A stretch of 64,000 nt of DNA. Source: Ignatzschineria sp. RMDPL8A. Lineage in GTDB: Bacteria; Pseudomonadota; Gammaproteobacteria; Cardiobacteriales; Wohlfahrtiimonadaceae. A program made the translations under genes and the position numbers. Below, in pieces: positions 2,466-57,410 of this stretch (positions are counted from its first letter, which is position 1; each line of letters begins with the position of its first letter). Under the pieces are notes generated by a model. It worked only from the letters and a program-made list of their open reading frames with translations. It did not search any database and was not told the DNA's origin. The stretch is from positions 1,550,001-1,614,000 of the forward strand of contig NZ_JAPPWA010000002.1 in NCBI RefSeq assembly GCF_029815055.1, read 5' to 3'.

Positions 2466-3332
2466 TTAGAGTGCTTCAAAGGTATTACAGGCTCTAATAT
2501 CGCCCTGATCAAATCCGCGTTGGAACCACTCTTGACGCTGTTTGGATGTGCCGTGCGTAAAACTATCGGGCACAACGACTCCGCGAGATTGTTTTTGCAG
2601 ACGGTCATCACCAATTGCGGCCGCGGTTTTCATCGCTTTTTCAAGATCACCGATCTCTAATAAACCACGCTCGCTCACATATTTACCCCAAATGCCGGCA
2701 TAACAATCGGCTTGAAGCTCCATTTTAACCGAGAGCTGATTGGCCTCTTTTTTGCTCGCACCCGCTTGTGCTCTACGCACTTTTTGATTCGTGCCAAGCA
2801 GATTTTGGACATGGTGCCCAACCTCATGAGCGATCACATAGCCTTGCGCAAAATCACCGCCACCGCCTAAGTTTCGGCGCATATCGTCATAAAATGAGAG
2901 ATCGATATAGACTTTATAATCAGCCGGACAATAAAAGGGGCCCATCGCTGCTTGCCCAAATCCGCACGCCGTGGAGGTTTGCCCTTTATAGAGCACAAGT
3001 TTAGGCTCTTGATAGGGGGTGCCCAGTTTTTTAAATTCTCGCGTCCATAAATCCTCGGTCATCCCAAGGGCCGCACCGGTAAATTCCGCCATCTTCTCCT
3101 CTTCTGGGGAGATGCGAACATTGGTTTCCGTCTGATAGGTGGTGCCTTCGCCGCCTAAAAGCGGCGATAGATCGATGCCATAATAGCCCGCGATCATCAC
3201 CACTAAAAAGACCGCAATCCCGGCCTTCCCATTTAATGGAATCGGGAGCCCGCCTAAGTTTGCTCCGCGCCCACCGCCTGAACGACGTCGATCTTCAATA
3301 TTATCGCTTCGTCTCTCTTTTTCCCAACGCAT
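2466..3332 (-). CDS. ypfJ: YpfJ-family neutral zinc metallopeptidase
   Basis: A 288-residue protein with a charged, glycine-rich cytoplasmic N-terminus (RRRSGGGRG), one membrane segment at about residues 36-54, and a metallopeptidase domain outside the membrane. The zinc motif HEVGHH is at 169-174 and a downstream ELQADCYAG provides the likely third ligand, as in the family. Conserved [16 protein letters not shown] precedes it. The physiological substrate of YpfJ proteins is unknown. The start has an AGGA ribosome site seven bases upstream. A -10 hexamer TATAAT with a weak -35 (TTAATT, 17-base spacer) lies upstream on the minus strand. Confidence 0.92.
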
Positions 3333-19058: not shown

Positions 19059-19320
19059 ATTTATTGCCGCCTGTGCGGCGGTTAACTCAAGTAAATTTTA
19101 CTTGGCAATGAATCTGTATTTCTAAGCCGCCTGTGCGGCGGTTAACTTTACGTGGAAGGTAAATTACAAACGAGAAAATTTTCTAAGCCGCCTGTGCGGC
19201 GGTTAACTATGAAAGTAAGGGTTTCCGTCTTTACCGCGAGTTTCTAAGCCGCCTGTGCGGCGGTTAACAAAAACGTTGCTTTGATCCATCGGATGCCAAG
19301 TTTCTAAGCCGCCTGTGCGG
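19059..19320 (-). CRISPR. Type I-F CRISPR array remnant: five repeats, four spacers
   Basis: 28-base repeats, plus-strand form TTTCTAAGCCGCC then TGTGCGGCGGTTAAC, resemble the subtype I-F consensus (the complement ends in CTTAGAAA). Repeats lie at 19059-19086 (first seven bases degenerate), 19119-19146, 19180-19207, 19241-19268 and 19301-19320 (last eight bases replaced). Spacers are 32, 33, 33 and 32 bases. Degeneracy at the left end marks the leader-distal terminus, so the array reads on the minus strand and its leader should lie right of 19320. Instead, coding sequence of cas1 begins there, so the leader and first repeat end are deleted. No cas effector genes are in the window. Confidence 0.95.
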
Positions 19321-54750: not shown

Positions 54751-55602
54751 CTATTCTTTATCCCAAATCTGCGGATATTTATACCCTGCAAAACGTTTTG
54801 CTGCATACGCTTTAAACGCCTCTGAGTTATAGGCATTTTCAACCGCTTCTACCCAAGGCCTTCCTAAATCTGAGCGTTTAATAGCCGCCCAATTAATAAA
54901 GGTAAATCCGCCTTCGGTATAGAGCGCATCGGTAAAGGAAATTCCTGAACTTGCTGCATAGTTACCCGGAATAATGGCAAAATCCACATCATCACGGGAG
55001 CGCGGAATTTGCGCCGCTTCAAGCTCAATTAATTCAACCTCATAATTAAATTGCTTAATATCGCGTTTTGATGCTTTAAGCTGATCGATGCCCTCATTTA
55101 AGGTAATAATCCCCATCTCATCGAGCATCATTAAGGTGCGCGCAAAGTTACTTGGATCATTTGCTACAGAAAAGGTCAATTTCCGTTTGCCAAGCTCATC
55201 AAGGCTTTTGCCTTTCCCGGTGTAAACCCCTAAAGGCCCGGTTGGCACTTGAAAAAGCTCCACTAAATCGAGATTATTCGACGTTTTAAACGCATCCAAA
55301 TAAGGTTTATGTTGGAAGACATTAATGTCGATCGAACCTTCGGCTAATGCACGATTGGGCTGCACATAATCGGTAAACTCAACGAGCTTTATAGTGTAAC
55401 CATCTTTCGCCATCTCAGGCTGAATGAACTCTTTGACCATATCGCCAAAGTCACCGACGGTTGTACCGATCACAATGGTTTTCTTCTCAGATGCCCCGCT
55501 CGCATCCTCTTTAGACGCGCCGGTTGCTGCATCATCAGAACAGGCAGTCGCAAGGAGTGCAAACGAGAGAAGTGCTGCCCAGCGGGTAATAATTGCTTTC
55601 AT
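54751..55602 (-). CDS. metQ: MetQ/NlpA-family methionine-binding lipoprotein (second copy)
   Basis: A 283-residue substrate-binding lipoprotein with a lipobox ending ALLATAC and then the MetQ domain: VIGTTVGDFGDMVKEFI, VEFTDYVQPNRALAEGSIDINVFQHKPYL, NDPSNFARTLMML, and the C-terminal YNSEAFKAYAAKRFAGYKYP. It delivers methionine (or a related compound) to MetI. It follows a paralogous metQ 10 bases away, and both are similar over their full length, suggesting tandem duplication with altered specificity. It ends at a strong terminator. Confidence 0.93.
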   Translation of the reverse strand: MKAIITRWAALLSFALLATACSDDAATGASKEDASGASEKKTIVIGTTVGDFGDMVKEFIQPEMAKDGYTIKLVEFTDYVQPNRALAEGSIDINVFQHKPYLDAFKTSNNLDLVELFQVPTGPLGVYTGKGKSLDELGKRKLTFSVANDPSNFARTLMMLDEMGIITLNEGIDQLKASKRDIKQFNYEVELIELEAAQIPRSRDDVDFAIIPGNYAASSGISFTDALYTEGGFTFINWAAIKRSDLGRPWVEAVENAYNSEAFKAYAAKRFAGYKYPQIWDKE

Positions 55603-55612
55603 TATAGACCTC

Positions 55613-56449
55613 TTATTTACTCGCTTCGCCCCACGCTGATGGGAATTGGAAGCCTGGGAATTTAGTGGTGATATACTCTTTAAAACGCTCTGAATTGTAG
55701 GCCGCTTTCACATCTTGATACCACTGTGAATCTTCATCTTCTACCCGAATTGCTGACCAATTGATGTAGTTAAAGTTTGGTTCATTTAAGATGCTATCGG
55801 TTAATTTCATGCCCGCTGATAAGACATAGTTACCGTTAATGGCAGCAAAATCAACATCATCTAATACCCGTGGAATATTCGCCGCTTCAAGCTCGATAAT
55901 ATCGATATTGAGAATGTTTTTGGTGATATCACGCTTTGACGCGGTAAGTGGATCGGTGCCCTCGCGAAGCTCAATCCAACCTAAATAATCTAAGATGACA
56001 AGCACGCGTGCAAAGTTACTTGGATCATTTGGCGCGGCAACTTTACTGCCCTCTTTCACTTGATCAAGTGATTTTAAGCGACCAGGATAGAGTCCGTAAG
56101 GCGCCGTTGGGACTTCAAACCCTTCTTTAATATTTAAACCGTGCTCTTTTTTAAAGCTCTGTAAATAAGGAAGATGTTGGAATACGTTGATATCTAAATC
56201 CCCATTTGCAAGCGCGAGATTTGGTTGAACGTAATCGGTAAATTCGATCAATTTTACTTTATAGCCCTGCTCTTCTAAGATCGGCGCAATCGAGTATTTG
56301 ATCATGTCGTAAAATTCACCGGTAGTTGCCCCAAAGCGAATCTCTTTTTTAACGCCACCTTCAGTTGTTGCGTCGTCCCCACTGCCACATGCCACTAGGA
56401 CGGAGAGTCCTAATACTACGGCAAGACTTTTAAACCATTTTTTAAACAT
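55613..56449 (-). CDS. metQ: MetQ/NlpA-family methionine-binding lipoprotein (first copy)
   Basis: A 278-residue lipoprotein with signal MFKKWFKSLAVVLGLSVLVAC and the MetQ core (FGATTGEFYDMIKYSIAP, IEFTDYVQPNLALANGDLDINVFQHLPYLQSF, NDPSNFARVLVILDYLG, VDFAAINGNYVLSAGMKL). It lies between metI and the second metQ, forming metI-metQ-metQ. The shared FTDYVQPN and INVFQH elements line the ligand cleft in the family. Confidence 0.93.
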   Translation of the reverse strand: MFKKWFKSLAVVLGLSVLVACGSGDDATTEGGVKKEIRFGATTGEFYDMIKYSIAPILEEQGYKVKLIEFTDYVQPNLALANGDLDINVFQHLPYLQSFKKEHGLNIKEGFEVPTAPYGLYPGRLKSLDQVKEGSKVAAPNDPSNFARVLVILDYLGWIELREGTDPLTASKRDITKNILNIDIIELEAANIPRVLDDVDFAAINGNYVLSAGMKLTDSILNEPNFNYINWSAIRVEDEDSQWYQDVKAAYNSERFKEYITTKFPGFQFPSAWGEASK

Positions 56450-56514
56450 TTCTGCCTCCTAAGCGATTTGTAATAATTCACTCGTTTTATCCCTATTGGA
56501 TTATCGATTATCGA

Positions 56515-57204
56515 TTATCGTTTATCGAGTGATCGTGAAATTTTGTTACCCAGTGATTGAATTAAAATAACCATTGCCGTCAAAATAATCATGATGGTGA
56601 CAATGACCTCCGGCTGATAGCGCATGTGACCGTGGCGAATTGCTAAGTCTCCAAGACCGCCGCCGCCAATCATCCCCGCTGCCGCACTCGCCGATAAGAT
56701 ACTGATGGTTAAAATCGTAACGCTTGACACAATGCCCGAGAGCGCCTCAGGAATGAGCACTTTGAAGATGATCGTTTTCGGATCGGCCCCCATCGAGAGC
56801 GCCGCTTCAATCACCCCTTTATCCACCTCACGTAAATTTTGTTCCACTAAGCGCGCAAAGTAAAAAACGGCTGCGATGGTTAAGGTAACGGACGCTGCAA
56901 TCGGCCCAATGGTTGTGCCCGCGACTTTTTTCGCAAGCGGACTTAAGGCAACCATCAAGATGATAAAAGGAAACGCACGGAAAAAGTCTACGACAATGCT
57001 GTTAACCTTATAAAACGCATGACGCTGATAGAGCGAACCTGGACGCGTAATATAGAGAATAATTCCGAGCATCAACCCGATAATTACCCCCGTCGTTACG
57101 GAAATTCCAAGCATTGTAAAGGTCTCTTGCGTCGCCTTTAGAATTTCAGGTTTTAGGTCGACCACGTTTTCAACACGTGATGCGAATGTCTTTGTAGAAC
57201 TCAT
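56515..57204 (-). CDS. metI: Methionine ABC transporter permease MetI
   Basis: A 229-residue permease with five or so membrane segments. The ATPase-docking loop is EAALSMGADPKTIIFKVLIPEAL, and the conserved VVDFFRAFPFIILMVALSPLAKKVAGTTIGP lies upstream. An AAAGGAT site precedes the ATG. The usual first gene of this operon, metN for the ATPase, is missing: the sequence immediately upstream is a structured leader and then an unrelated arsC-like gene. The ATPase must come from elsewhere if the transporter works. Confidence 0.93.
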   Translation of the reverse strand: MSSTKTFASRVENVVDLKPEILKATQETFTMLGISVTTGVIIGLMLGIILYITRPGSLYQRHAFYKVNSIVVDFFRAFPFIILMVALSPLAKKVAGTTIGPIAASVTLTIAAVFYFARLVEQNLREVDKGVIEAALSMGADPKTIIFKVLIPEALSGIVSSVTILTISILSASAAAGMIGGGGLGDLAIRHGHMRYQPEVIVTIMIILTAMVILIQSLGNKISRSLDKR

Positions 57205-57244: not shown

Positions 57245-57376
57245 TTTTCAATCACAAAAAAAGCCCATATCGACGTCGACACAGGCTTTTTATAAATTCA
57301 GTGATTTATCCATCTCTTTCGAGATTCTCACGCTTTAGCTGTATTCCTTGCCCGCAAGCTGTATCAAATCGGCATG
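57245..57376 (-). ncRNA. Candidate SAM-responsive leader RNA with terminator upstream of metI
   Basis: From a strong promoter the minus-strand RNA begins about 57376. It contains TGCC (57374-57371), GATTTG (57370-57365), GCTTGC (57359-57354), GGCA (57352-57349, pairing with TGCC) and GCTAAAG (57339-57333), which is the order and approximate spacing of SAM-II riboswitch core blocks. A GAAA-capped hairpin (ATCTC/GAGAT) follows, then an intrinsic terminator. The pseudoknot helix is only weakly supported, so the class is not certain. Confidence 0.45.
57256..57294 (-). terminator. Intrinsic terminator within the metI leader
   Basis: Minus-strand AAAAAGCC pairs with GGCTTTTTTT around a loop that holds a CGACGTCG palindrome. 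It lies between the promoter and metI, about 50 bases before the start codon, the position of an attenuator. Confidence 0.82.
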
Positions 57377-57382
57377 ATTACT

Positions 57383-57410
57383 ATTAAACGCCTTTTAAAA
57401 ATTTTGTCAA
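57383..57410 (-). promoter_or_regulatory. Sigma-70 promoter of the metI leader
   Basis: Perfect -35 TTGACA (57405-57410) and -10 TTTAAT (57383-57388) on the minus strand, 16 bases apart. It lies just after the arsC-like gene stop, giving metI-metQ-metQ its own transcript. Confidence 0.75.

Follow-up and report, generated by a model that had tools for sequence, protein, structure and literature searches.

Does the leader in front of the metI-metQ-metQ operon, on the minus strand of the window (the whole stretch of 64,000 nucleotides analyzed here), belong to a known class of riboswitches or represent a new one, and how might it control methionine uptake? Our sequence-based analysis indicates, with a probability of about 0.9, that it is a riboswitch of a compact branch of SAM-II, which would turn the operon off when S-adenosylmethionine (SAM) is plentiful. 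All features of the leader are given on the minus strand.

Organization of the leader and its operon

First, we examined the layout of the region. Direct reading shows a perfect -35 element (TTGACA, 57405-57410), as the earlier note had claimed, although perfection is confined to this element: the probable -10 (TTTAAT, 57383-57388; spacer of 16) is the best candidate and deviates from the usual A at position 2, and a consensus promoter scan of the leader, with the whole promoter included, called no site. Transcription would start at P1 or just 5' of it, and the start sites reported for SAM-II lie a few nucleotides 5' of P1 (Corbino 2005, PMC1273637). The compact SAM-II aptamer (57327-57375) is followed by a hairpin, AUCUC-GAAA-GAGAU (57312-57325 in the minimum free energy (MFE) fold), which occupies the interval before an intrinsic terminator with a U tract (57256-57291; hairpin 57291-57258). 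The terminator, lying between the aptamer and the first gene, has 15 pairs (chance expectation 0.1) and is also formed in the MFE fold.

Downstream are metI (56515-57204), encoding an ABC permease (PF00528), and two genes for substrate-binding NlpA/MetQ lipoproteins, metQ1 (55613-56449; PF03180, E 4.5e-77) and metQ2 (54751-55602; PF03180, E 2.1e-66). The hairpin, the attenuator and the gene order thus agree with the earlier description, and the SAM-II blocks together with the attenuator support its reading of a ligand-type leader before methionine transport genes. The operon (54751-57204) has no metN. Elsewhere in the genome there are two metN paralogues, one at C2:420927, with no metI match beside it, and one at C2:1438708, which adjoins a second metI (metN-metI pair, C2:1437632-1439379). 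The MetI of the window is 58% identical to the MetI of metNIQ operons of the same family (genomes G006 and G008), and in these relatives metN-metI-metQ has the same leader before it. An arsC-like gene (57812-57441, minus strand) lies upstream of the leader, and megablast against plasmids gave no match. Away from this locus, three CRISPR repeats (Rfam CRISPR-DR4) occur at 19119-19268 of the window, also on the minus strand.

Assignment to the SAM-II class

From 57374 to 57327 the aptamer reads UGCC GAUUUG AUACA GCUUGC GGGCA AGGAAUACA GCUAAAGCGUGAG, so that every SAM-II-like block listed before (GATTTG, GCTTGC, TGCC/GGCA and GCTAAAG) is present. At the gathering score, Rfam gave no match at the leader. 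With the limit relaxed to E 10, the SAM_alpha model (RF00521) gave the top riboswitch match, which was also the only SAM-family match; its 17 bits fall short of the gathering score of 36, a deficit that we ascribe to the longer loop 3 expected by the Rfam model. Because 17 bits is also the noise level of a whole-genome search with SAM_alpha, the case rests on two covariance models from which the window was excluded: R1, built from 26 aligned gammaproteobacterial SAM-II leaders of related genomes, and R2, built from 43 compact relatives. On the 64-kb window, R1 matched the leader with 49.7 bits (E 2.8e-12; next-best place 11.3 bits) and R2 with 59.6 bits (E 1.8e-14). Chance is excluded by such E-values from window-free models. 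The earlier note had spoken of a divergent or new class; given these matches, the first part stands and the second does not, and by its model scores the leader is a divergent variant of the known class SAM-II.

Other known classes were rejected. SAM-V (RF01826) had no match in the window at E up to 10, and a positive match at another locus (L145) shows that the search works; the SAM-II long loops model (RF01726) had no match in the window, and loop 3 of the leader is short. The terminator before metI would also suit a translation-attenuating leader peptide or a T-box type attenuator, with the likeness to SAM-II being accidental. However, an Rfam search to E 10 gave neither a T-box nor any meaningful leader match, and coincidence cannot account for SAM-II matches with E-values of 1e-12 to 1e-14, so this reading is refuted for practical purposes.

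Structure and conservation of the aptamer

P1 consists of only 4 bp between UGCC (57371-57374) and GGCA (57349-57352), namely U57374-A57349, G57373-C57350, C57372-G57351 and C57371-G57352. By alignment, loop 1 (GAUUUGAUACA, 57360-57370), which includes the GAUUUG block (57370-57365), supplies the third strand (UUU) and the 5' nucleotides of P2a (C57361 and A57362). The 5' strand of P2 (GCUUGC, 57354-57359) has its partner at 57339-57332, and the 3' strand (GCUAAAGCGU, 57330-57339), with the GCUAAAG block at 57339-57333, carries the U and A residues that contact SAM according to the SAM-II and SAM-V papers. Loop 3 (57340-57348) is shortened, with 10 nucleotides from GGGC to GCUAA versus 14 in canonical relatives.

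The earlier note had found the P2 pseudoknot unconvincing by eye, whereas it is in fact complete, with eight standard pairs: six in P2 (C57354-G57339, G57355-C57338, U57356-A57336, U57357-A57335, C57358-G57333 and G57359-C57332) and two in P2a (C57361-G57331 and A57362-U57330), with A57360 bulged. As expected, the single-sequence MFE fold does not contain it. U57337 is unpaired in P2 of the window, and its counterpart in SAM-V, U47, pairs with the adenine of SAM (PMC6061858).

All invariant columns of the SAM-II alignment (22/22) are retained in the window, and the nucleotides of the ligand core (GAUUU, UUGC and GCUAAA) are all conserved. Among the residues named as SAM contacts, with the uridines specified for SAM-II and SAM-V (PMC11508383, PMC6061858), the uridines of GAUUU, the UU of CUUGC, and the U and As of GCUAAA are kept; the sole change is Pelagibacter A20, which is C in the window and also in most aligned relatives. 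These contacts bear on whether the leader might be a different class on a SAM-II-like scaffold that senses another ligand, such as S-adenosylhomocysteine (SAH), methionine or another sulfonium. The shorter P1 and loop 3 and the score below the Rfam cut-off would fit such a class, but the contacts are retained apart from a substitution that is common among relatives, and the downstream genes serve methionine uptake and biosynthesis, which makes another ligand very improbable.

Covariation in relatives was in line with the SAM-II structure. The compact relatives were collected by a pattern that fixed inner parts only, leaving the outer P1 pair and P2a free, so these two are fair tests. The outer P1 pair was UA, CG or AU in 74 of 75 relatives and the second P2a pair was AU, GC, UA or GU in 69 of 75; none of 5000 shuffles reached as high a value in either case. 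Over the whole structure, paired cells made up 97.5% of the alignment (A4) and fell to 27-47% in slid controls; double changes occurred in 34 cells, compared with a mean of 9.1 after shuffling. The counts are drawn from related sequences and hence do not represent independent events. Thus, with P1 and P2 both covarying in relatives and SAM_alpha as the top riboswitch match, although below its cut-off, the refuting outcome named in the earlier note, an absence of both covariation and a SAM-family match, did not occur.

A proposed switching mechanism

The leader probably acts as an OFF switch through loop 1. The proposed switching strand, UUGAUACAGCUU (57356-57367), would form the 5' half of an antiterminator by pairing over 12 bp with 57288-57276, and its partner, AAGC(C)UGUGUCGA (57276-57288), lies inside the 5' arm of the terminator. 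When SAM is absent, nascent loop 1 and the 5' strand of P2 would capture this arm, the antiterminator would form and transcription would run into metI. When SAM is bound, the loop-1/P2 strand would be held in the pseudoknot, leaving the arm free, so that the terminator would form and transcription would stop before metI. Since the terminator (-18.4 kcal/mol) exceeds the antiterminator duplex (-13.2 kcal/mol) in stability, read-through must depend on the order of folding. We grade this mechanism as likely only, because the duplex of the window taken alone is borderline against shuffles (p 0.055).

Comparison among leaders supports the antiterminator pairing across the compact branch. Loop 1 paired better with the terminator arm of its own leader (mean -2.88 kcal/mol) than with the arms of other leaders (-2.21 kcal/mol), a preference equalled in 62 of 5000 permutations, and the window ranked 1 of 25. 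In Neisseria, loop-1 GACACAG stands opposite CUGUGUC or UUGUGUC in the terminator arm, and in other lineages changes in loop 1 tend to go with changes in the arm (TGATCACAG/CGTGATTA, TGCACAG/TTGTGCG). However, in canonical relatives with a long loop 3, loop 1 did not favor the arm of its own leader (4563 of 5000 permutations were as good), and for this reason the mechanism is claimed for the compact branch only. Canonical relatives often carry GCUUUAG in the terminator arm, which could base-pair with GCUAAAG in the 3' strand of P2. Other leaders of the compact branch appear to use the 5' strand of P1 or UUGCGGGC as the antiterminator strand, and the exact switching segment is therefore not fixed.

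These observations also bear on a genuine SAM-II aptamer with another route of control, either competition through the 3' strand of P2 or sterics, in which the complementarity between loop 1 and the arm would be coincidental. The canonical relatives, without own-arm preference and many of them with GCTTTAG in the arm, lend this route some support, as does the borderline p-value of the window. Against it, the terminator arm of the window contains no GCUUUAGC, 12 bp can form between its loop 1 and its own arm, which places it first among 25, and changed loop-1 sequences go with changed arms in other lineages. We therefore regard another route as unlikely and favor switching through loop 1 in the window.

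Distribution of the compact branch

As aligned here, the compact branch is characterized by a 4-bp P1 and a loop 3 that is shorter by 4-9 nucleotides; the spacing from GGGC to GCUAA is mostly 5-10 in the branch and about 14 in canonical relatives. It was found in Ignatzschineria, Wohlfahrtiimonas, Neisseriales (upstream of metN), Bdellovibrio and Pelagibacteraceae. Within the family of the window, 17 of 18 genomes matched R1, usually with two to three strong sites per genome; the genes that follow a site are metN-metI-metQ, metQ, or a 2OG-Fe(II) oxygenase gene with metQ genes behind it. Among the pattern matches listed were Neisseria, Eikenella, Snodgrassella, Chromobacterium, Aquitalea and Vogesella, mostly before metN, as well as Bdellovibrio, a Coxiella endosymbiont and Pelagibacteraceae. 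Compact leaders upstream of metN in Neisseria, Chromobacterium, Aquitalea, Vogesella and Snodgrassella (L122, L186, L121, L162, L126, L123, L148, L198 and others) were missed by Rfam.

None of the 19 compact loci scanned had a SAM-II match with Rfam 15 at the gathering score, and with a lax threshold the best SAM-II scores seen reached 20-22 bits. Of the 369 genomes sampled from the class, 153 had an R2 match with E of 1e-4 or lower (the E-values of R2 being rough), compared with 30 that passed the Rfam cut-off; as R2 also picks up canonical SAM-II, the former number counts SAM-II in general.

Several further observations were made in this family. In Ignatzschineria and the source genome, a 2OG-Fe(II) oxygenase gene (DIOX_N and 2OG-FeII_Oxy; L100:762-1772 and L110:1145-2158), with relatives in Wohlfahrtiimonas, has a compact SAM-II before it and metQ paralogues after it. 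The source genome has another SAM-II site with a terminator (C2:400951-401001; L071/L099), whose first long downstream gene encodes a short-chain dehydrogenase. In addition, two divergent SAM-I riboswitches (L125:2718-3180 and L177:90-533) lie near a compact SAM-II locus in Ignatzschineria, which thus uses both SAM-I and SAM-II.

The SAM-II class was already known, as were its terminators and the place of its promoter (PMC1273637). In a regulon survey of 2014, SAM_alpha was confined to Rhizobiales and Rhodobacterales; the survey left the beta-proteobacterial metNIQ genes without a known regulator and was unsuccessful in its search for one (PMC4239095). The gonococcal SAM riboswitch of PMC5399841 sits at the methionine adenosyltransferase gene, and our literature search, which mostly lay outside subscription journals, found no paper on compact SAM-II at metN, Neisseria included. 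Compact SAM-II before metN in Neisseria, Chromobacterium, Aquitalea, Vogesella and their relatives would provide a direct and testable answer to the question of the missing metNIQ regulator. More generally, a shortened form of SAM-II escapes the standard RNA database Rfam, similar forms stand before methionine-uptake genes in many bacteria, and the branch shows how far loop 3 can shrink with the SAM pocket retained.

A GCUAAG offshoot upstream of metQ

A smaller SAM-II-like element, GAUUUGG..GCUUGCGGGC..GCUAAG, was observed between genes of operons, immediately 5' of metQ, in Ignatzschineria and the source genome (C2:1480253-1480301, outside the window and equal to L100:1854-1902; L110:2202-2250 and 3264-3312; L098:2794-2842; L083:273-321, minus strand). 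Its loop 1 contains GAUUUGG, and GCUAAG replaces GCUAAAG; the absent A corresponds to a listed SAM contact, A49 of Pelagibacter SAM-II and A50 of SAM-V (PMC11508383, PMC6061858). In 10 of 10 family loci, the 3' flank has two alternative partners, loop 1 and the Shine-Dalgarno sequence of metQ, with which it would pair via overlapping nucleotides (individual p-values being mixed), and this alternative suggests translational control. GCUAAG in place of GCUAAA also occurs in two Neisseria MAGs (L133 and L161) and in Panacagrimonas (L143, before an apparent metZ), so that the contact adenine was probably lost or changed more than once. It is a speculative and rather doubtful idea that the compact branch forms a distinct SAM-II subclass switching via loop 1 and that the offshoot, having lost the adenine in contact with SAM's aminoacyl end, might respond to a different sulfonium or adenosyl compound.

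Comparison with known systems

The leader shares with SAM-II (SAM_alpha, RF00521; PMC1273637) the order and identity of the blocks, P1, the P2 pseudoknot, a promoter just before P1, a terminator between P2 and the open reading frame, and methionine genes downstream. In contrast, its P1 has 4 bp instead of 5, its GGGC-to-GCUAA spacing is 10 nucleotides instead of the canonical value of about 14, and its proposed antiterminator strand is loop 1 rather than the 3' strand of P2. The SAM-II long loops family (RF01726; PMC2864571), from Bacteroidetes and marine sources, represents the same aptamer with longer loops, the opposite of the compact branch and of the short loop 3 of the window. SAM-V (RF01826; PMC6061858) shares the H-type pseudoknot and its SAM-binding triplex core with the aptamer of the window, whereas its loop and helix sequences differ. 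Finally, the metZ SAM-II of S. meliloti (PMC9373788) resembles the window in the SAM-dependent terminator predicted downstream of its aptamer, but it is alphaproteobacterial and lies upstream of metZ, whereas the leader of the window precedes transport genes.
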